The notes below the pieces were generated by a model. It ran no database searches, was not told the origin of the DNA, and worked only from the letters and a program-made list of their open reading frames with translations. Made by a program: the position numbers and the translations under genes. This document shows, piece after piece, positions 24,480-64,000 of a stretch of DNA of 64,000 bases (the first letter of the stretch is position 1; each line of letters starts with the position of its first letter). The stretch is from Vanrija pseudolonga (taxonomy: Eukaryota > Basidiomycota > Tremellomycetes > Trichosporonales > Trichosporonaceae): positions 1,178,001 to 1,242,000 of the forward strand of contig NC_085851.1 in the NCBI RefSeq assembly GCF_020906515.1, written 5' to 3'.

Positions 24480-27400
24480 TTACTCCTGGCCGAAGCCCAG
24501 GGTCTCCTCGACGGCAAGGGTGAGCTTTTGCTCAAGCGTGTCGTAAGACTTGTATGCTGGCAGGTCGATACGGTTGAAACACGTGTGCGACTTTGGCAGC
24601 TGAGTGATCTCACCGGCCTTCTCAATGGTGAAGCGACGGGGGCCGTCGGAACCCTGCAGGTCCTTGAAGCCGTTGACGGGGATACGCGAGGTACCGGTGG
24701 TGAACTGGAGGAGACGCGACTTGCGCTCGGCGGGCCAGCTGCGAACAATCTTCCAGAACCACTCGACAACCTCGTCTGAGGGGTTGTAGCCACGGTAGTC
24801 GGTGTGCTTCTGCCAGTCGTCCACGTCGATCTCGGACATACCGCCGATGAGCAGCTCGAGCTCGCGCTCGTCGAACACGTTGATGAGCTCCTGGGGGATG
24901 AGCTCGTTGAAGCCCGACATGAAGGCCTCGAACTGCTCCGACACTCGGCGAGAGATACGGTACTCGGTGACGTAGTTGACGTAGTCCTTCTTGTTCTCCT
25001 CGGTGACGTCGATGTCACGGCCGCCGGGCTTGAGGTCGATGGTGACGAGCTCACCAAAGTGCTCCTCGCTGATCGAGAACGTGTCCTCAATGACATCGGT
25101 GATGTCGTTCTCGAGCATCCACGTGAGACCACGGTGGAGACCAGCGTCCACAGACTCGAGGTCGGCAAGGGTAATCTTCTTCTTCAGGATCATCTTGTAG
25201 AAGGAGACAATGAAGTAGGCGTCGAGGAAACGACGGTGGAAGATACCGAGACCAACAACACGGCCGATAAACTTGAAGTAGTTCAGGTGCTCGGGGTTGA
25301 CGCCAGAGTTGGGGTTGATCTGGAGAGTGTAGTTGTCGTGCGCCGAGTACTCGAAGAGACAGTAGAAGGGGTTGAACATTTCGTGCGAAAGCAGGAAGAA
25401 GAATTCACGAGACAGACCTCCGTAGTCGAGACCGTCTTCACCCTCGAACTTGATCATCAGACGCTTCTTGAGATCGTTGGGCGACTGGCGCATGATCTCG
25501 GTGTACGAGCCCTCGAAGATGTTCTCACGCGACACCTTGATGTGGCACTGGCCCGTGTTGGAGCGGAGCGCCGGCTGCGAACGGAAGTAGATGAGCTTGC
25601 GACGGAAGTCACGCTTGTACTGGGGCACGTTGACGTCAAGCGAAGAGGGCAGACGGGGGTCGTCCCAGGTCGTCGTCTTGGTGTTGTGGTCAACGAAGTA
25701 GACACGAGCAGTGGAGGTGAGACGCATTTCCCATCCAGAAGGAAGAGGGCCAAGCTGGGAGACAGTCTGGGGCTGGATCTGAGTGCCCGACTGTCCGGGG
25801 GCAATGACGCGGAGGAGCTGCTGGCGACGGGGGTCGACCCATGTCGTCGTGCGCGTGTTGTGGTCGACGAAGTAGGGGCGGCCCTCGGGGGTGAAGCGCT
25901 GCTCCCAGCCGGCGGGAAGAGGTCCAGTGCCGACGGTTGTCTGCTGGCCAACAGGCAGAGTTGTGGCCTGGTTGGTGGGGGTGTGAGCACCAGTGTTCTG
26001 CGTGTCGAGCATGTCGTCGGCCAGAGTACGCTGGTTGTGGCGGGCAAGAGCGGCGGCATTCTGGCTAGCCTGGGTAGTCGTGTTGGACGACTGGTCGCTG
26101 CTGGGACGGCTCCACGTGGTAGTACGTGTGTTGTGGTCGACATAGTACTGACGACCAAGGTGGTCAATACGGCGCTCCCAGCCTCCGGGGAGAGGACCAA
26201 GCTGGTCAGAGTGCGAGTCGAACTGGTGGCCGGCAGCGCCGGTGGGGTTGTTGTTGAGACCCGCTGTCGCGGTGGCAAGAGCAGTCATTGGCTGGTTGCT
26301 CTGTGCGGGTGGCGCGGGGTTGGAGGGGGGCTGCGGGTTGGCCGCGGGAGTAGGAGGGGCCACTGCTGGAGGGGACGAGAGGCCAGCAGCTGGGCTCTCG
26401 GGCTCAGGGGTACCGTTGGCAGCACGGGTCTGGTTGCCAGTGTTGACCGAGATGGCCGAGTCGCCAGCAGCAGCGCTCGTGCTGGCCGTGTTGGCCGCGT
26501 TGGCGGGAGGGTTGGTAATGGGGGTAGTAGTCTGCGTGGAGAGGTAGATGATGAGCTTGCCGTCGACAGCAACCTTCTCGGATCCCTTCTTCAAGTCGCG
26601 TGTGAGCATCTCTGTAGTCGGAGTCAGCACTATCCGGTTGCTTTACCAAGACGACGACGCACCCTGGCCACCGAGCTCAAGGTCGCTGAAGACATCGGAA
26701 ACCTTGATGTTGATAACACCGAGGAAACCCTGGTCCTGCTGCAGCGACTGTTAGTTGGGGGCCACGTTGGTATGCAGCAAGCGCCCGCACGCACCTTTCT
26801 CTTGAACTTGCGCTGGTCAAAGATTTGGACGGCAACAACGCTCGAGTCCTTGACCGTGCTTGTAAAGTCAGTATTGTAACGACGACAACGTTGGCCCTTG
26901 CGTTGCGTTGCGGAAGCGAAGGGAGGCGAAGTGGCGGAAACAATCACACCAACTCCCAAGCAGACCCCGTCATCGGTGACACGGCGGCGTGGCCGGATCC
27001 GCCCCGGCCACACCGACGTTGACACCGCGGCATACAACACAACTGCGTGCAGCGCAATATGATGGTCGTCGCTGCACCGACGCACGCATGCAACGAGCAG
27101 CAACATGCAAGCAAGCAGGTGCACTTACATGTCAAAGTTCTCATTCCAGTAGGGGTTGAGGGTGCGCTTGATGACCGAGGTCGTGTGGAGCTGCTCGCCG
27201 TCGACCGAGACGATGGCAAAGGGGTCTGGGAGACGGAGGATGTCGCGCTTGATTAACGAGTCGGCAGCGACGACTGTGAGGAGCAACAGAAGTCGTGGAG
27301 CGGGGGGGGTCCAGTGCGATCCGCAGCAGTGCAGGACAAGCGGTGCAAGAAGCAACGAGGCGCAGAGATGGCAGTGGAGAACGAGCCCGCGTGCGGCGAT

Positions 27401-35212: not shown

Positions 35213-35336
35213 TGTTGGATTCTAGCCTTACGTAACATTGATTCTGGCCACAGGCCGACGCCGCTCTACATGTGCGTGCGTGCAACTATCTTTCTATGCA
35301 ACCATTCTTCTCTCTACTAGCGTGTAAAACCCAACA
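35213..35336 (+). repeat. 5' LTR of the copia element
   Basis: Starts TGTTGGATTCTAGCC and ends GTAAAACCCAACA. The short inverted ends TGTTGG/CCAACA are intact. It matches the 3' LTR at every position I compared. Confidence 0.95.
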
Positions 35337-35354
35337 GATTAAGAGTCAAACACC
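35337..35354 (+). other. Primer-binding site, complementary to a tRNA-Lys(CUU) anticodon arm
   Basis: The 18 bases right after the 5' LTR begin GATTAAGAGTC, whose complement GACTCTTAATC is the well-known anticodon loop of eukaryotic tRNA-Lys(CUU). Copia elements are known to prime from a tRNA cut in the anticodon loop rather than from the 3' CCA end, and this fits that mode with lysine tRNA in place of initiator methionine tRNA. Confidence 0.65.
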
Positions 35355-35782
35355 TCCGACGCCGTCTACGAGTACGACAGCATCCTCGGCGACAGCTCCA
35401 CGCACCAGTACTGCAAGAATCACCACCAGCGACACGTTCCTCGCCCAGGCAGCGAGCTGTGTCAACCGGTGACACAACCAGGCCAACAAGGACCACCTAG
35501 CCGAGCTCACAGGGCAGCTAGAGTAGCAGTTCTTGCGCGAGGGTGTACCCCCAGCGCGGCCCAACGTCTGCGCGCTAACGGCAACGCACGAGACCCAAAA
35601 CTGCGAGCTCGCCATCGCCGTCGGCGCCGCACCTGTGCGAGACGTTCACACTACCACGCCCCCTGGACGCCCTCCACACAACCTCCACCGGGCGTTCACT
35701 CAACGTCATCGCCGTCATCCCACAGTCACGTGACCACGTTCCCACGCACACTGCTCAACCTCCACTACTAGAGGAGACCAAC

Positions 35783-38700
35783 ATGAGCGACCACAGTAAC
35801 GGCGACCTAGCCAAGGCCACCAAACTCAAAGGCTTTGACAGCTTTGCGAGGTGGCACAAGGATCTCCAGGCCATCGCCTACGAAAAGGGCTTTCACGCCG
35901 CGCTCAACGGCAATGAGAAGGACCCTTACCGCAACCCCAATGCGCCGCGCGACAGCCTCGAGCACGCCGGCACCTCCTTACCAGAGGGCTCAGCCTTCAT
36001 CACTCGCCCTGCTCTAGAGGCACGCCGTGAGCGCGAGCGCTCAAAGACGCCGACTCCACCCACCACCGGCGCGTCATCCAGCTCAAGTACCTCGGGCACA
36101 ATCACTCGTCTTCAGGCAGCAACGGCGCAGCGCGCTTTAGAGGCCGCACAACAAGCCGCCCAAGCAACCACAGGAGGACAAGAGGTCACTGGCGTAGACA
36201 TGACAGCCATCTCCGTCATCCTAGCCACCACCATGTCCCTCCTCCACGGCGACTCTGTCAAGCCAGAACCCGATGAGGAAGCCCTTAGCAAGGACGAACG
36301 CGACGAGTGGTTCAAGTGGCAAAAGCGCGAGCTCGGCGCACGTGGCGCACTCCTACGCACCGTCGAGCCCCACATCATCTCGGACTACGAGCATCTGTGG
36401 TACGCCGCAGACATCTTCAAGGCCCTCAAACAGCGCTACCTTTCGGACACCAAGCAGCAGGTGATCCGCATCCGCTCAGCCATGGCCACCCTCTTTGTCA
36501 AGACCGACGCAAACCTTGAGCAAAAGAAAGCCTACATGACGACCTTTCGCAAGAAGCTCACCGAGCTCGCCGACCTGGGCTCTCCTCTCACAGAGGATGA
36601 ACGCGCCCAGATGTTCTACAACGGCATGCCACACGAGCTAGAGGCAACCATCCGCCGCATGGCCACAGACGACAAATGGGAGACCATCTCGCGCGTCTAC
36701 GACAGGTACATCGACTCTGTTAAACGCGATTTGGAGCGCGAAGGCAAGCACGTCGCAGCCAGCGCAAACAAGAAGGACGACAAGGCCGACGAGGCCAGTA
36801 CCTCCACTGGCCGTGGCCGCGGCCGCGGACGCGGGCGCGGGCGTGGACGTGGCGGTGCCACCACTGGGCGCACCACGGACACCGACACCGGCACCTCCAA
36901 CAAACCTCCTCGCTGGTGCGCATACCACCACGTTTTCTCACACATGACCAACGATTGCAACCAGAAGGAGTACCACACGGCCGAGAATACCAAGGACTCG
37001 CCACCTCCTAAGAAGGAGAAGCCCAAGAAGGACGGCGAGGACAAGTCCGGCGCGTCGATCGCCTCATACACGCGTATCCCTGACCACCTCGTGTCGTCAT
37101 ACTCCCACGCGCCACCGGCACAGGCAGCTGCTGCCACCCTCTCGGACACGCATGCGCATCTCCTCATCGACTCAGGAGCCAACACCTCACTCATCGGCGA
37201 CCGCACGCTGCTCAGCAACATCTGCGCGCTCAAGCGCACCGCCTACTTTGAAATGGGCGGCACTGGTTACCTCATCCCCGCGGATGAGGTTGGTGACATC
37301 ATCATCACCACCAGTGACGGATCAGCCACCATCCCAGACGTGCACTACTCCCCCGGCACTGTCCACAACATGATCTCCAAGCGCGTCTGCAAGGAGGCTG
37401 GCTGGACCTTTGACGGAGAAGACACCTGGATGCGCAACGGCGCCGTCAACCTCGAGCTGGACGACAGCCTCAACGCGCGCCCCACGGCGACACTCCGGCG
37501 CCCTCGGCGTGCGCAGGTGGCACCAGTGGACATTGTCCGCGACGACGAAGCTGAACCCGCCAAACCCAAGTACGGCGTTGGCTTTGTCCTTACCATCCAT
37601 CGCCACCTCGCCCACATGGGCAAGACTAAGATGATCGAGCTTGCGCGCGCCGGCCTCCTCACCGGCGTGGACCCAGAAGCCCTGGCCAACTCGGACTACC
37701 GGCTGCGTGATTGCCAACACTGTGCAATGCACAAGTCCACCAACCACCCACGCGACCAGCACTCAATGCGCGGCTCTGCCAAGGGTGAGATGATCCACAT
37801 GGACCTCACCGGCATGATCTCCAACACGAGCGAGCGTGGCAACCAGTATCTCCTCTGCATGGCAGCAGACTACACTGGAGCCAAGGAGTACATCCCCCTG
37901 CCTAGCAAGTCTGGAGCCCCCATCCTTGCCGCCGTGCGCAGTTTCGTGCGCCGCATTGAGAGGCAGACCGGCATCAAGGTCAAGTGGATCCGCTCGGACC
38001 AGGGAACGGAGTTCCTCAACGACGGCATGGCCGAGTACTGCGCCGAGGAGGGTATCAATCACCAGACCTCCGCTGTCTACACGCCAGAGAACAACAGCGT
38101 GGCCGAGCGCGCCATCCGCACCATGAAGGAGGGTATCGCCACCCTCCTTGCCGCCGCACCGCACATCCCTGAAGACCTATGGGACTACGCCGCCGAGTAC
38201 CTCGCCGTCTTAATCAACATGGCATCACTCAATGATGACGGCGTATCGGCGTACGAGCTCATGACTGGCCGCAAGCCCCACTTTGACAATCTCAAGCCCT
38301 TTGGCACCAAGGTGTACGCGCGGCTTGCAAAGGCCAAGGTCAAACACCTCGACACGTTCGAGCGCCCACGATCCGTGCCAGGTTGGCTTATTGGTATCGA
38401 CCCACACTGCGCTGGCTGGTGCGTCCTCCTGGAAAACGACCACAGCGTGATCTACACGCGCGACGTACTCGCTGCAGGGGAGCAAGGACCAGGAGAACCC
38501 ATCGCCGCGCCAGACGACATCGAGTACCTCGAAGACGACCCCGACGCCGAGCAGGATGACGTCAATGATGACGACATTGCGCCGCCCGGTGAAGCCGCTG
38601 CCATCATGTACTACGACCAGCCCATGTCCCTCGCCGCTGCCACCGAGGCCTCCGAAGGCGATGACACCATTCCTGTCCACGAGGGCCTACGCGGCGCAGA

Positions 38701-40201
38701 GCGCGAGCAGTGGCGCAAGGCCATGGACGCCGAACTCGCCAACCTGCAGAAGTACGGCACCTACGTTGAGGCAGACCTGCCCGAGGGACGCAAACCTCTC
38801 TCTGCCAAGTGGGTCCTACGCCGCAAGCGCGACGCCAATGGCAAGATTGTCAAGTACAAGGCACGTCTGGTCGCGCGCGGCTTCATGCAAGTACCAGGCA
38901 TCGACTTCGAGGACACGTACGCGCCTGTGAGTCGCATGGGCACTGTACGCCTGTTCTTCAGCACCTGCGCGGCCAAGAAGTTCAACATCCGCCAATGCGA
39001 CGTCGAAGGAGCCTACCTCAACGGCACGCTGGACGTTGAGCTGTACCTCAGCCCTCCAACCGGCGTTGCTGTCAAACCTGGCAAGGTCCTCATGCTCAAG
39101 AAGGCAATCTATGGCCTCAAGCAGTCTGGCCACCACTGGTGGTTGGAGGCCCGCGCCGCCCTGCTCGAGCTCGGCTTTGAGGCCTGCGAAGACGACTGGG
39201 GTTTCTACCGCCGCAAGACCGACGGAGCGCTCGTGACCATCTACGTGGACGACTTCCTCATCGGTACAGCCACCACAAAGCAGGCCGACGACATTATCAC
39301 CGCCCTCCGCAAGCGCTGGACAGTTGTCGACCTGGGCTACCCCTCACAAATGCTCGGCATCCGCGTTGAGAAGCGCGGCGACACCATTGCGCTCAACCAG
39401 GCCACCTACATTGAGCACATTGCCAAGAAGCACAAGGTGGAGAACTGGAAGACTGGCAAGACATGCCCTCTGCCAACTGCAGGGGAGCTACCCGGCTCTG
39501 AGGACGGCGACGAGCTCAGCGCAACCTTCACCTCCGAGTACAGGACCATGACAGGCGGCGTCCTTTGGACAGCAAGCGTATCACGCCCAGACATCGCCTA
39601 CACAGCTGGCTATCTCGCGCGCTTCAACAACAAGCCCACCACAGTTCACCTTGCGACAGCGCGTCGCACCATTGGCTACCTGTGGCACACGCGCAACCAG
39701 TGGCTTATCCTCGGCAGCGACCCAAAGCAGACCAGGCCTGACGTGTACGCGGACTCGGACCTCGGCGGCTGCGTGGACACACGCCGCTCTACCACCGGCT
39801 ACGTCGCATTCTTCCTGGGCTCGCCAATCACATGGCAATCGCGCCGCCAACAGACCACAGCCACGTCCACGACCGAGGCTGAGTACATGGCCATCTGCGA
39901 AGCTGGCCTAGAAACTGTCTTCCTCCGGCGCATGGCTGAATTTGTGGGCTACCCCCAGGACAAGCCGTCCACCCTGTACGTGGACAACACAGGCGCAATC
40001 TCGTTGGCAAACAAGCCTACTGCGCACTCGCGCTCAAAGCACATCGAGCGCCGCTACCACAAGATCCGCGACCTGGTCAACACTGGCCAGTTTGCTTTGC
40101 AGCACGTACCCGCCGACAAGCAGATTGCCGACGGCCTCACAAAGGCTTTGAGTGGCCCCATGCAGGCCAAGGCCTGCAAGGATCTCAAGCTCCGCGCCTG
40201 A
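35783..40201 (+). CDS. Copia gag-pol polyprotein
   Basis: One frame of 1,472 residues carries gag and pol without a shift, as in many copia elements. Rough order: gag (1-370) with an arginine-glycine stretch and a C-x2-H...H-x4-C finger near 377-391; aspartic protease (LLIDSGANTSLI, near 460); integrase zinc finger H-x4-H...C-x2-C (about 600-650) and core (about 668-850, IHMDLTG, SDQGTEF); reverse transcriptase (about 985-1230) with YVDDFLIG; RNase H (about 1310-1450). Codon use is as GC-rich as the host genes, which may mean long residence in such a genome. Confidence 0.95.
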   Translation: MSDHSNGDLAKATKLKGFDSFARWHKDLQAIAYEKGFHAALNGNEKDPYRNPNAPRDSLEHAGTSLPEGSAFITRPALEARRERERSKTPTPPTTGASSSSSTSGTITRLQAATAQRALEAAQQAAQATTGGQEVTGVDMTAISVILATTMSLLHGDSVKPEPDEEALSKDERDEWFKWQKRELGARGALLRTVEPHIISDYEHLWYAADIFKALKQRYLSDTKQQVIRIRSAMATLFVKTDANLEQKKAYMTTFRKKLTELADLGSPLTEDERAQMFYNGMPHELEATIRRMATDDKWETISRVYDRYIDSVKRDLEREGKHVAASANKKDDKADEASTSTGRGRGRGRGRGRGRGGATTGRTTDTDTGTSNKPPRWCAYHHVFSHMTNDCNQKEYHTAENTKDSPPPKKEKPKKDGEDKSGASIASYTRIPDHLVSSYSHAPPAQAAAATLSDTHAHLLIDSGANTSLIGDRTLLSNICALKRTAYFEMGGTGYLIPADEVGDIIITTSDGSATIPDVHYSPGTVHNMISKRVCKEAGWTFDGEDTWMRNGAVNLELDDSLNARPTATLRRPRRAQVAPVDIVRDDEAEPAKPKYGVGFVLTIHRHLAHMGKTKMIELARAGLLTGVDPEALANSDYRLRDCQHCAMHKSTNHPRDQHSMRGSAKGEMIHMDLTGMISNTSERGNQYLLCMAADYTGAKEYIPLPSKSGAPILAAVRSFVRRIERQTGIKVKWIRSDQGTEFLNDGMAEYCAEEGINHQTSAVYTPENNSVAERAIRTMKEGIATLLAAAPHIPEDLWDYAAEYLAVLINMASLNDDGVSAYELMTGRKPHFDNLKPFGTKVYARLAKAKVKHLDTFERPRSVPGWLIGIDPHCAGWCVLLENDHSVIYTRDVLAAGEQGPGEPIAAPDDIEYLEDDPDAEQDDVNDDDIAPPGEAAAIMYYDQPMSLAAATEASEGDDTIPVHEGLRGAEREQWRKAMDAELANLQKYGTYVEADLPEGRKPLSAKWVLRRKRDANGKIVKYKARLVARGFMQVPGIDFEDTYAPVSRMGTVRLFFSTCAAKKFNIRQCDVEGAYLNGTLDVELYLSPPTGVAVKPGKVLMLKKAIYGLKQSGHHWWLEARAALLELGFEACEDDWGFYRRKTDGALVTIYVDDFLIGTATTKQADDIITALRKRWTVVDLGYPSQMLGIRVEKRGDTIALNQATYIEHIAKKHKVENWKTGKTCPLPTAGELPGSEDGDELSATFTSEYRTMTGGVLWTASVSRPDIAYTAGYLARFNNKPTTVHLATARRTIGYLWHTRNQWLILGSDPKQTRPDVYADSDLGGCVDTRRSTTGYVAFFLGSPITWQSRRQQTTATSTTEAEYMAICEAGLETVFLRRMAEFVGYPQDKPSTLYVDNTGAISLANKPTAHSRSKHIERRYHKIRDLVNTGQFALQHVPADKQIADGLTKALSGPMQAKACKDLKLRA

Positions 40202-40259
40202 AACCAGCAGACCTCCGCACGACAGCCCGCTCGCGCAAACTGATCGCGACGAGACGTCC

Positions 40260-40267
40260 GAGGGGAG
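40260..40267 (+). other. Polypurine tract of the copia element
   Basis: GAGGGGAG stands directly before the 3' LTR, where plus-strand priming occurs in LTR elements. Confidence 0.75.
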
Positions 40268-40391
40268 TGTTGGATTCTAGCCTTACGTAACATTGATTCT
40301 GGCCACAGGCCGACGCCGCTCTACATGTGCGTGCGTGCAACTATCTTTCTATGCAACCATTCTTCTCTCTACTAGCGTGTAAAACCCAACA
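40268..40391 (+). repeat. 3' LTR of the copia element
   Basis: 124 bp, identical to the 5' LTR by eye, with the same TGTTGG...CCAACA ends. Confidence 0.95.
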
Positions 40392-40690: not shown

Positions 40691-41652
40691 GGACGTTGTC
40701 GCCTTGGTGCCTGCCGGCGGCGTGACAGACTTTTGAGCGGTGCGAGCGCGAGTCCCTGGTGCGAGGTGGCGGCGACGGACATTCGGAGGGGAGCCGGGGG
40801 TGTCGAGGAGTGGAGGCGGGGCAGTGTAAGGCGAAGGTCGTCAGTGTGTGGTTCGATGTCTACTCGACTGTGTTGGAAGTGTCAGCGATGTTGACTCTAC
40901 GGTGCGAGCGAGCTCTGCCAGATTCAGTGTCTGCAACAGCTAGCCCTAGTTGAGCCAGATCTGCGGATGGCGCCAGTTGTTCCAGGCCTCGCGTAGAGAT
41001 AACGCGGCGTATGGTGTGCAGGGAAGCGAGATATCCCCAGCTTCTGCGACTAGAAAGATTGCGGTGAGTCACGGGAGGGCCGGTTGGCACGGGGTGGGTG
41101 GCAGTGGGTCATGGTGGGTGAGTGGTGGTGGTAATGGCTGTGGCAGTGCGCAGTCGCGTACACCTACGCGAAGGTACGCTTCGGGATGCGCGTTGTGCGT
41201 CATGCACATCCGAATAGATACGAGTTGTCCGTATCGGAGAGGCAGTGCAGACGGAGAACGGCGGGTGCGGTGCACCGGGCGTTGTGCGGCCGGCTTGACT
41301 TGGCAGAGATGCCAGCATTCCGTCACACCAGTGGCACACATAAGGATGGCGGCAGCGATGACGTCGTGCCCCCGCTTCCAACGTCGCTTCTCAAAGCTGT
41401 GCTCACTGCCCGTCTTCTTGAGGTGCACCACTCGGCATGGTCGCTATCGTCGGCAGATGCTTGTGGATGCGGCATCGCGGTGGTGGGCTAGTGGATCGTA
41501 CGGAATGCATATAAGGTGGCGACGGGGCGACGATGGAGGAGGTCATGAAGCCAAGCAACCACCACTGCTCGACCACAGCCAACCGCTCCAACAGCCCAAC
41601 CACACCACAACCAACCCAACCCAACCACACCCACACCCCAACCACACCCACA
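40691..41652. other. Gene-free spacer between the tRNA pair and the small-protein gene
   Basis: About 960 bp. A long frame crosses it but is low complexity. The end of the spacer holds a TATAAGG and an A/C-rich leader that belong to the gene at 41653. Confidence 0.5.
41510..41516 (+). promoter_or_regulatory. TATA box candidate of the small-protein gene at 41653
   Basis: TATAAGG lies 137 bp before the ATG and is followed by a long CCAACCACACCC-type leader, which in yeasts often marks strongly expressed genes. Confidence 0.45.
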
Positions 41653-42029
41653 ATGTCCCTTACCAAGTACACCTCGACCGAGACGCTCCCCGCGTACTCG
41701 CCCGCTGCCGAGCCCATCTCCCCCGTGGAGGAGAAGGCCGCGCTCGCGTCCCACATCGTGGCGCTGCCGCACGAGCTCGACCCGGCGTCCGTCTGCGCGG
41801 CCTACGGCCACGACTCGCGCCCGAACCTCAAGACTGCGCTCGCCCTCACCGTCCCTTCCCCTTCAGCGTCGCCTACGTCCTCGCGAACCGCACCGTCCCG
41901 TGCAACCGGTGCGGCGTGCCCGTGCGCCGCTCTTGCTGCTGCCACGGTGCGCGTAGTGCCCCCGCCGCCGGCACGCCGCTCAAGAAGACTGTCTCGGCCG
42001 GTTCCTCGTCTACGGCGCACAGCGCTTGA
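41653..42029 (+). CDS. Small protein with LPAY motif and CNRC...SCC tail, frame broken once
   Basis: I do not recognise this family. The frame from 41653 begins MSLTKYTSTETLPAYSP and reads with strong GC-ending codons through SVCAAYGHDSRPNLKTALALT. From about 41866 the coding signal moves to another frame, which reads SVAYVLANRTVPCNRCGVPV, RRSCCCHG and a serine-rich end to the stop at 42027. Similarity to the gene at 62182-62639 spans both halves, so both belong to one gene. The shift lies in the C/T run at 41851-41866 and is equal to one missing base. No GT-AG intron can mend the frame without removing the shared VCAA-x-GHD block. It may be a recent pseudogene, an assembly error in a C run, or programmed frameshifting. 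Features: PY-like motif at residues 12-15, one hydrophobic stretch, cysteines as a pair and a triplet. Confidence 0.55.
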
Positions 42030-59118: not shown

Positions 59119-60468
59119 ATGGCAGAGACAACATCACAGCCCATCGCATCGGCTACTCAGTCCAAGGCCACAGCGCCCGAGGCAGCCGCCACCGCCGCGG
59201 CGCCAGAGGCAGGACCCTCAACCACTGGACAGAAGGAGCCGGTCGTTGTCCTCGTCATCGGCATGGCTGGATCGGTGAGTCGCGCAGTGTCACCTTGACG
59301 CGCCAGCTGCAGTCACTAACTCTACCCCCAGGGCAAGACCACCCTTATGCAGCGTCTCAACTCGTACCTCCACTCCAAGGACCAGCCGCCGTACATCCTC
59401 AACCTCGACCCTGCCGTCAGCCACATGCCCTACTCTGCCAACATAGACATTCGGGACACGGTCGACTACAAGGAGGTCATGAAGCAGTACAACCTCGGTC
59501 CCAACGGTGGTATCATGACGGCTTTGAACCTCTTCACGACCAAGTTTGACCAGGTGCTCGGCTTTGTGGAGAAGCGCGCGCAGAGCGTCGAGTGGGTTAA
59601 GCGCCTTGTTCTGGACTGACCACCAGCTACGTCCTCGTCGACACGCCCGGACAGATTGAGATCTTCACCTGGTCGGCGTCCGGCGCTATCATCACAGACG
59701 CCATCGCCTCGTCGCTGCCCACGGTTGTTGCGTACATTGTCGACACGCCCCGCACGACGTCGCCCGCAACGTTCATGAGCAACATGCTGTACGCCTGCTC
59801 GATCCTGTACAAGACGCGCCTGCCATTCATCCTCGTGTTCAACAAGATTGATGTCGAGCCACACGACTTTGCGCTCGAGTGGATGGCCGACTTTGAAAAG
59901 TTCCAGGAGGCGCTCGCCGAGCGTGGCCGCGACGAGAACGGCGAGAACTACATGAACTCGCTGATGAACAGCATGTCGCTCGTTCTGGAGGAGTTCTACA
60001 ACGACATTCGCGCCGTCGGTGTCAGTGCCATGACAGGCCAGGGCATGAAGGAGTTCTTCGCGGCCGTCGAGGAGGGCAGGAAGGAGTACGAGGCGTAAGT
60101 TTGATCGGGGGTACTACTCGGCCCGAGCTCACACCTGCAGCGACTACCGGCCAGAACTCGAGCGCCTCAAGCAGGAGAAGGACGCCAAGGCCGAGGCGGC
60201 CAAGCAGGCTCACCTCGAGCGCATGATGAAGGACATGGGCGTCGACAAGGCACCCAAGGGTAACCCCTTCGGCCCGCACCCCCGAAACGAGCGCGAGGAC
60301 CGGTACATGGACGACGAGGGAGGAGACTCGGAGGACGAGAGGATAGACCGTCAGCAGGAGGCAGAGGAGGAGGCGGACGACCACCCCGAGGTCGCGCCCG
60401 AGGATGACGACGTCATGCAGTATGGAGGGCATGACGAGGGTATGGGAGTGTGGCCCCGGCCTCAGTAG
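59119..60468 (+). CDS. NPA3: GPN-loop GTPase 1 (Npa3/XAB1)
   Basis: Four exons, 59119-59274, 59332-59591, 59627-60094 and 60141-60468, give 403 residues. Gpn1 is needed for assembly and nuclear import of RNA polymerase II. Motifs: G1 [14 protein letters not shown] (about 49-62, cut by intron 1 right before GKT), NLDPAV, the family-defining GPN in [28 protein letters not shown], and FNKIDV for guanine. The C-terminal quarter is acidic and coiled ([20 protein letters not shown] and an E/D-rich run). The second and third introns are 35 and 46 nt. It converges with the guanylate kinase gene with about 180 bp between stops. Confidence 0.95.
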
Positions 60469-60650: not shown

Positions 60651-61474
60651 CTAGAGCTCGTGGACCTTGAGCTCGGGGAGGTCGTCGCCGACCTTGTCCC
60701 AGCCGTCAGTGCCGAGTGCGACCGCCTCAAGGAGGGCGCCGGCACGCTCGACGTCGTCGTTGACGATCACAATGTCGTGGGCGCCGGTGAGGGCGTGCTC
60801 GATCTCAGCCTTGGCGGCCGCGAGGCGCTTGCGCGTGCTCTCCTCGGTCTCGGTGCCGCGGCCGGCGAGGCGGTCCTTGAGGTGGCCGACGGACGGGGGG
60901 CTGAGGAAGAGGAAGACGGGCTCGAGGGGCGGCGCCTGCTGAGGGCCGGCGACGTGCAGCTGCTTGACGCCCTGCAGATCGATGTCGAGGATGCAGCGCT
61001 TGGGCGCGAGGCCGCGGAGCGCGGCGAAGGTCGTGCCGTAGCTGGGCGGGTCAGCGACTGCTGTGATGTGGCATGCCACGACGCGAGGAAGGCGGAGGTG
61101 CCCAGCACCAGGAGCCTGGGTGCGCAACGTGCCGACCCCCAACGCACGCCCGACTCACCAGTTACCGCCAAACTCGGCCCACTCCAAGAACTCGTTGTTG
61201 TCGACACGCGCCTTGAACTCGTCGCGCGTGACAAAGTGGTACTCGCGTCCGTTCTCCTCGCCCGCGCGGGGGTTACGCGTCGTGTGCGAGACGGAGAAGC
61301 CAAACTCGCCGGGGTACTTGGCGAAGAGGGCCTTGAGGAGCGTCGACTTGCCCGTGCCCGAGGGGCCGCAGATGACGAGGGGCTGGGGGCGCAGCGTCAG
61401 CAGGAAGCACGAGGAGACAGAAGCAGAGGCGCAACACCTACACGGTCAACAACAAGGGGCGAGACGTGCGACAT
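60651..61474 (-). CDS. GUK1: Guanylate kinase
   Basis: Three exons, 61474-61442 (33 nt), 61382-61159 and 61041-60651, give 215 residues. The enzyme phosphorylates GMP to GDP and so feeds GTP and GDP-mannose. Motifs: P-loop [15 protein letters not shown] (about 16-30), the GMP-binding block [54 protein letters not shown] and LFLSPPS. The usual YYGT reads CYGT here. The first exon codes only [11 protein letters not shown], followed at once by the P-loop. The C-terminus is as expected for the yeast enzyme. Confidence 0.95.
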
Positions 61475-62181: not shown

Positions 62182-62639
62182 TCACTTCCACGGGCAGCAG
62201 GAGGTACGCTCCACGCGCTCATGGCAGCGGTTGCACTTGGCCGTCTTGCGCTTCGCAAAGCTGGGCCGCCGTCAGCATTCACCCCCGTGTGCCTTCCCTC
62301 GTACCACACTCACTAGAGCATGCTTCCCGGGACAACCGCAGCGAGGGCGATCATGCGCGCCTTGGGGAGGCTCGTGTCGTGGCCGAGCGCGGCGCACACC
62401 TCGGCGGGGGTCGCGCCGTCGGCGAGAAGCGCTGGGGGAGTGGGGTGAGCCTCTGTTGCCGCCCGCAATCACCGCCGCGCGCACTCACCCTCGGCGTCGG
62501 CGTCAGTCTTGGCAAGCTCGCGCTTCTCCTCGCTCGCGGTGGTGAAGGTCGGGCTTGGGGGCACCACGACGTTGGCGTCCTTGGTGTCGGCGTACGGCGG
62601 GGGGACCGAGGCCGTGGGCGAGGGAGGGACGAGCGACAT
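62182..62639 (-). CDS. Small protein with PPPY motif and CNRC...SCC tail
   Basis: I do not recognise this family, but the model is firm: three exons, 62639-62489, 62431-62314 and 62260-62182, with GTGAGT donors and CAG acceptors, join in frame to 115 residues. Residues 1-50 are proline and acid rich and hold PPPY at 13-16, a class I ligand for WW domains. A block TPAEVCAALGHD (about 57-68) is shared with the gene at 41653. Next comes a mostly hydrophobic stretch, ARMIALAAVVPGSMLYFA (about 74-91), possibly one membrane helix, then a basic KRK and the tail CNRCHERVERTSCCPWK, with a C-x2-C pair and a CC pair. The tail cysteines could bind zinc or be palmitoylated. A TATATA lies about 115 bp upstream. 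The function is unknown. Confidence 0.8.
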
Positions 62640-64000
62640 GGTGGTGCGGGAGAGGGTGAGGCGGAAGAGGTAGAAGTGGAGTATGGTTGAGGAGAGTGGT
62701 GGTAGTGGTGTGACAGGTGTGCAGATGGCGAAGAAGCAACTTGATCAACCGCTCTATATATGCACGATGGGCACCACTGAGCGATTTGTCGGCGGCGGTG
62801 CAGGCGGATCTGGACACATGTCTCACATCCCCTCGGTGGGCGGCACGGTCGGCTGCATCGCGTCGCGCCTTGGTGTGTCCACCAGATCTGCATGCGCCCG
62901 AGACAAGACGGCACCACCGATTCCAGAACAACATGCATCGCTATCGTCGTTGAAAGGTGTGTTCTGGGCGGGTTGGCGCGGAGATGCCGGAAGCGAGCAG
63001 CCGGGGGCGGTGCATCTCGACGCAACAGGTGCCACTATGGGAACCGGCGTGGCGGGTCGAATACATCGGTCTGCGGTGCGAGAGGTTGTCCTCGGTCACA
63101 ATGATGTGCATGTTACTGGGACCGAGGCAAGATGCATCGGGCAGAGTGGCAGTACGCCTGCGTCGGACGAGTGCGTCGAGATGCCCAAGTTGCAACAACT
63201 GCTCCCAACATTCTCCTCGACCGCAGAGTGATTTCATGACCCGACGTTTGCGTCAGGCAATGGGCCTCTCTCGCGATAAACGTCTAATAAACATCGAACC
63301 TGTCCTGTCGGTCTCCACGAGTACAAGGACAGTATGCACTGGGCTCGTGATGGCTGAACATCCAAGAACAACCCCTCGACGTGGCGCAAGCACTCATCCT
63401 TACTTCACTTCATTTGGCAGACCAGCTGAGCACTACACCCACTGTGAGCTCGCCGAGGCCCCGCCGTCATCCTTGTCACCCAATCACGACATCGTCAATT
63501 TTTCTACCCGATAGGCAGAGGAACGGACTGTAAGTGAAGGGGGCGTGAGAATATGATGGACTCGCAGCAACGAGGATGGGTCTCAGGAGAGGTTGTCGCC
63601 TCCTTTCACGTCCCAGTCATGGCACGAACAACTGTGTCATGTCTGACGTCGCTTCGGCCCTGTGACGCCAGAGTGCCCTACGATGACCCCGCGCTCGTCA
63701 CGCTAACCCGACAACAGCATCAAGTGAAGGGGTTAGTCGCGTACCGTGACCGCAGGTGTGGCTCGGGTCGGGCTCCCCCTCGCCAGGCACGCCACTCCTG
63801 GCGACGCGGTGGATCGCGTCGGTCGCGCCGTGTTACCGTCTCGCGGTCGCGGCGTCGCTTTGCAACGCACGCGTCGTCTACAAGGCGCACCGTGGCGCGC
63901 AGCGCGCGGTCGCGGTCGTGCCAGCCCCCGCCGGACCCCCGGTCCAAGATTCTCTGTCTGCTAGGCACGACCGACCCCTGACTGGCAGGCTGCATCTCGG
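62640..64000. other. Gene-free end of the window; promoter of the small PPPY protein gene
   Basis: The first 150 bases hold the promoter of the gene at 62639. Beyond that, frames up to 185 residues exist on both strands but none has a known motif, codon signal or exon chain. An exon of a gene reaching past the window cannot be excluded. Confidence 0.4.
62754..62761 (-). promoter_or_regulatory. TATA box candidate of the small PPPY protein gene
   Basis: ATATATAG on the minus strand about 115 bp before the ATG, similar in spacing to the TATAAGG of the related gene at 41653. Confidence 0.45.

Follow-up and report, generated by a model that had tools for sequence, protein, structure and literature searches.

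The window, i.e., the whole stretch of 64,000 nucleotides that was analysed, belongs to the yeast Vanrija pseudolonga (Trichosporonales). It contains a short gene, designated here as A, which is composed of the following parts.

62182-62639, minus strand: gene A (LOC62_03G004043), from start codon to stop codon, three exons, 115 aa
62489-62639, minus strand: exon 1, N-terminus rich in proline, with PPPY
62432-62488, minus strand: intron 1, 57 bp, GT-AG; the P0002 counterpart does not align with it
62314-62431, minus strand: exon 2, C-x4-H-D block and hydrophobic stretch
62261-62313, minus strand: intron 2, 53 bp, GT-AG, phase 2; its place and phase are those of the intron in paralogue C
62182-62260, minus strand: exon 3, basic stretch, CNRC knuckle and tail

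The three-exon, 115-residue gene had been placed exactly at 62182-62639 by the original prediction, and its product is identical to the annotated V. pseudolonga protein LOC62_03G004043 (P0001). An open reading frame from a source labelled 'lgn' (P0002) shares 45 identical residues with exon 1 of gene A in 51 aligned columns (5 differences and 1 gap). The similarity to P0002 is lost in intron 1 and returns at the exon 2 acceptor in a shifted frame (26 of 27 residues), which supports the exon-intron model of gene A. The final 15 residues' worth of leader 5' of the gene A ATG is also identical in the source of P0002, so that conservation in the 'lgn' relative is not confined to the coding sequence. 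Judging by eye from the list of open reading frames, we take the neighbours of gene A to be a guanylate kinase-like gene (60651-61396, minus strand) and a GPN-loop GTPase-like gene (59601-60098, plus strand).

A paralogue of gene A with a broken reading frame is located in the same window.

41653-42029, plus strand: gene B region (LOC62_03G004037 = P0007, 133 aa), paralogue of A, frame broken; the end position refers to the stop codon in the CNRC-tail frame
41851-41865, plus strand: interval of the frame change in gene B, either a real frameshift or an assembly error; P0003 and P0005 show no break at this point

The CNRC tail of gene B is out of frame with the N-terminal half, which carries MSL, LPAY and VCAAYGHD. 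An intron does not explain the change of frame, since the sole GT between GHD and the TTCAG preceding the tail is situated 16 bases before that AG, which is too short. When P0003, an intact B-type protein of the 'lgn' relative, was searched against the genome, gene B was matched in two frames by overlapping parts of the query (residues 1-98 and 68-123); the interval of the frame change was placed by eye, with gene B read against P0003 and the likewise intact B-type protein P0005 of V. albida. The NCBI protein P0007 takes another frame past the break and lacks the conserved CNRC tail. Gene B is thus not an intact gene in the GCF_020906515.1 assembly, and LOC62_03G004037 should be flagged as either truly broken or mis-modelled. 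Two genes of the window had been predicted to encode proteins of one family; this holds for A, and for B as far as homology is concerned, but not for the integrity of its frame.

Upstream of gene B there is a copia-type LTR retrotransposon of young appearance (35213-40391, plus strand), with about 1.3 kb between its end and the gene. It is bounded by identical 124-bp repeats (35213-35336 and 40268-40391) with the TTGCA target-site duplication on both sides, and its open reading frame (35579-40201) encodes gag, integrase and reverse transcriptase domains.

Whole-genome searches, covering 24.9 Mb in 9 contigs, were carried out with several members of the family. The gene A protein, used as a query with one extra glycine, retrieved its own three exons and two further matches, weak but collinear, on contig C1 (E 0.61 and 5.45), where a third paralogue is found.

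L014, 2122-3243 (contig C1): gene C, 354 aa, one 57-bp intron, third paralogue

The intron of gene C is in phase 2 and occupies the position of intron 2 in gene A, and the product combines two PY motifs (LPPY and PPSY) with the family core. The core of P0004, a C-type protein of V. albida, entered with some stray letters at its start, matched gene A exon 2 at E 0.0014. No locus beyond A, B and C was revealed by the queries A, P0003 and P0004 core, which were searched exon by exon with 2 to 4 candidates each. The similarity of the three genes is beyond chance, since the local alignment scores of 121 (A-B), 132 (A-C) and 114 (B-C), with gene B entered with X at the frame break, all lie above the maxima of 1000 shuffles each (71, 65 and 62, respectively). 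The tail of gene C (L014 2750-3243) is long and rich in Asn, Ser, Trp and Cys, with repeated Cys-Gly, and P0004 is similar in composition.

A 12-base word, CGACGATAGCGA, occurs twice in the window (41441-41452 and 62938-62949), upstream of B and A, where shuffles expect none. There are 18 sites of this word in the genome and 9 for the reversed control. The flanks were inspected at 8 of the 18 sites; three of these belong to A, B and C, the one in C lying in coding exon 1, while among the remaining five at least two resemble Asp/Ser-coding sequence by eye. The word is not claimed as a signal of A/B co-regulation and is possibly due to chance.

Beyond the genome, searches of 5.8 billion proteins retrieved P0001-P0007 alone, both at E<=1 (2 of 60 candidates) and at E<=10 (7 of 7991 and 5 of 7997); such searches need shared five-residue words, and the two made at E<=10 scored just the candidates sharing most words. 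The seven proteins are A, annotated B, P0004 and P0005 of V. albida, and one 'lgn' protein of each type (A, B and C). An A-type protein of V. albida was not among the matches of these searches. The two V. albida proteins and those of the 'lgn' relative are the homologues outside the window on which the predicted existence of a real, fast-changing family depended, and the pair scores above the shuffles and the third paralogue on another contig bear it out as well. Judged from the proteins matched so far, and as far as seen, the family seems to occur only in Vanrija yeasts and in what appear to be close relatives. No match was found in plasmid records. The literature search gave no paper with any of the four locus tags, nor with both 'Vanrija' and 'LITAF', and the query for orphan genes in Vanrija gave unrelated papers only among the matches listed.

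The family signature can be written as [L/P]PxY ... C-x4-H-D-x29-CNRC-x3-V. Its spacing is fixed in all five complete members, namely A, P0003, P0005, C and P0004 (this count excludes the broken B, P0007 and two partial sequences, P0002 and P0006): in each of them, the His of GHD lies at a distance of 5 from the Cys, and CNRC at a distance of 31 from that His. The invariant positions of the core alignment are C, G, H, D, two Ala, Pro, Ser, C-N-R-C, V and one later Cys, the last of which was placed by the aligner and varies in spacing. The His of GHD, overlooked earlier, is a possible ligand. From the two genes of the window, a CNRC...SCC tail had been expected to be common to the family; its CNRC-x3-V part is invariant in 5 of 5, but the SCC of A is replaced by SCCC in P0003, SWC in C, PWC in P0004 and SPC in P0005. 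Nor is the tyrosine nine residues before CNRC a family trait, this residue being W in C and P0004. Taken alone, the codon pattern of CNRC is not enriched in the genome (119 matches vs 469 for the reversed control).

The [L/P]PxY motif is found near the N-terminus in all five complete members, and twice in C and P0004; the strict PPxY form is characteristic of A, C and P0004, and LPxY of P0003 and P0005. Among 5000 shuffled N-termini, as many PY motifs appeared in 168 cases for A, 262 for P0003, 943 for P0005, 214 for C and 232 for P0004. Since this amounts to 3-19% of the single-protein shuffles, each case taken separately is merely suggestive, and the PY motifs of paralogues are not independent of one another. 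A ubiquitin ligase frame of the Nedd4/Rsp5 type, containing 3 WW domains and a HECT domain, is present in the same window (24483-26642, minus strand), and its product is a plausible partner of the family PY motifs. To meet this ligase, the PY motif would have to be cytosolic.

The hydrophobic stretch between the two conserved blocks is borderline, with a 17-residue Kyte-Doolittle maximum of 1.55-1.75 in the five complete members; it is nevertheless the most hydrophobic 17-residue window in each of them and is followed by basic residues. It is Ala-rich, contains an invariant internal proline, and has a low hydrophobic moment at its centre, i.e., the centre is not amphipathic. The AlphaFold models are poor (pLDDT 55.9 and 48.7); both give helix-break-helix along the hydrophobic part, with a beta hairpin at CNRC. 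The CNRC region of P0004 gave a sub-threshold Pfam zinc-ribbon match (PriA, E 0.035, 14.5 bits with the cut-off at 26), which is at most a hint of a zinc ribbon. Given that neither C-x4-H nor CNRC varies in letters or spacing among the five complete members, a peripheral membrane protein with a zinc-binding tail, one of the forms originally proposed, is compatible with the data available from the sequences.

On these grounds, it is tentatively suggested that the proteins work in a LITAF-like manner, with a PY arm directed to an Rsp5-type ligase and a zinc-clamped membrane dip, while having no demonstrable membership in the LITAF family. They would be small adaptors facing the cytosol, in which the disordered Pro-rich N-terminus docks on the WW domains of the Rsp5/Nedd4-type ligase through [L/P]PxY. 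The hydrophobic stretch of about 18-20 residues, with the conserved proline at its centre, would dip into the cytosolic leaflet of the membrane. C-x4-H and CNRC might meet around one zinc (C/H + C/C) and clamp the hairpin; if they do share a zinc, both ends are on one side of the membrane, presumably the cytosolic one. As cargo, they would take a membrane protein that is sorted to the endosome or vacuole.

The same stretch may be read as part of a soluble small zinc-knuckle protein, in which a helix-turn-helix and the CNRC hairpin enclose an Ala-rich buried core and the PY motif makes the protein a ligase substrate or regulator. Its borderline, Ala-rich composition with a central Pro is consistent with this, as are the weak models, in which a hairpin and a pair of short helices take the place of a single long helix, and the zinc-ribbon match on P0004. 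However, in 5 of 5 members this is the most hydrophobic window, succeeded by basic residues as at membrane interfaces, and the proteins are probably too small for an evident soluble core; a soluble protein is therefore somewhat unlikely. The tail-anchored or palmitoylated single-pass protein put forward by the original prediction is improbable. It draws on A, B and P0003, where the hydrophobic part is followed by CC or CCC, but there is a single Cys at this site in C, P0004 and P0005, and the conserved items are CNRC and C-x4-H; since SCC is not conserved across the family, palmitoylation at this motif is not supported and is rejected as a family feature. A spanning helix would also bring the PY motif and the tail to opposite sides of the membrane. 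A classical single-pass helix is less likely for a stretch that is borderline, holds a conserved internal proline and has two flanks that both look cytosolic by inference.

The zinc-clamped dip raises the question of a truly divergent LITAF member in which the first CxxC has turned into C-x4-H. The parts do come in the same order, and UniRef labels P0005 of V. albida as 'LITAF domain-containing', which is the sole outside hint of LITAF. However, no match to PF10601 (zf-LITAF) was obtained at E<=10 in A, B (with X at the break), C and P0003-P0007, with the same result for four members that were rescanned, the HMMER filters dropping most matches above about E 0.1; the UniRef label must therefore come from another model. 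Comparison by hhalign with LITAF, and with LITAF and CDIP1 together, gave a probability under 1% for reference letters entered by hand. In pairwise alignments with human LITAF and CDIP1, likewise entered by hand, none of 8 scores stood out (338 to 911 of 1000 shuffles were as good). In place of two CxxC, all five complete members have CNRC alone after the stretch and C-x4-H before it. Searches for LITAF in the V. pseudolonga genome, made with the Pfam family and with a hand-entered LITAF domain, gave no match, without a working positive control, and its absence is not claimed. Based on the negative profile, hhalign and pairwise tests and the single CxxC, membership in the LITAF family is rejected for now, the family is not filed under LITAF, and the divergent-member explanation is considered quite improbable. 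Searches against Pfam, NCBIfam and the PDB sequences yielded chance matches only (best E 0.035, 0.035 and 0.48), as did PHROGs (best E 0.17), so that the early impression that the layout corresponds to no named domain was confirmed by the first three. That these are young genes of little function, partly decaying, would suit the broken frame of B and the matches confined to Vanrija and relatives in shared-word searches, but it is hardly credible with a spacing fixed across three paralogous lines and with exons kept where the intron diverged, even though the leader ahead of the ATG was kept too.

The adaptor with a zinc-clamped membrane dip may be taken one step further. It is possible, though rather unlikely, that a membrane-interrupted zinc site (C/H + C/C) combined with PY motifs evolved independently in these three paralogues and is convergent with LITAF, being restricted to Vanrija and relatives. 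If this is true, LITAF-style anchoring, i.e., a zinc finger folded around a membrane dip, can arise with different ligands, and the family adds to the basidiomycete yeasts a hitherto unnamed group of candidate ligase adaptors.

Among known systems, the knuckles of zinc ribbons and rubredoxins resemble CNRC-x3-V in its weakly predicted hairpin; unlike in those, the other ligand pair of the Vanrija family would be C-x4-H, placed before the hydrophobic stretch. Rcr1 and Commissureless are similar as short proteins with PY motifs that bind Rsp5/Nedd4 ligases: according to the excerpt of PMC5578492, the short insect membrane protein Commissureless binds Nedd4 via L/PPxY, and yeast Rcr1 binds Rsp5 via VPEY with the help of PPSY. 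Commissureless differs in its single transmembrane domain, and the same excerpt, which allows a comparison by description rather than by sequence, has no C-x4-H / CNRC pattern for either protein (PMC5578492). A further close parallel is with LITAF/SIMPLE and CDIP1 (PF10601). As the excerpts of PMC5095921 and PMC5142333 describe it, LITAF has a PPXY arm, a stretch between Cys knuckles, one zinc and both termini in the cytosol, and its zinc-ligand mutants lose membrane association. It differs from the Vanrija family in having two CxxC, where the latter has one and C-x4-H-D in the first half; in the 49 residues from C99 to C148, compared with 31 from H to C; and in its helix, described as amphipathic in the excerpt of PMC5142333, whereas the centre of the Vanrija stretch is not. 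A Cys-flanked hydrophobic stretch is present in both, though shorter and borderline in the Vanrija family; common to both are the small size, the Pro-rich N-terminus with PPxY and one CxxC knuckle after this stretch.
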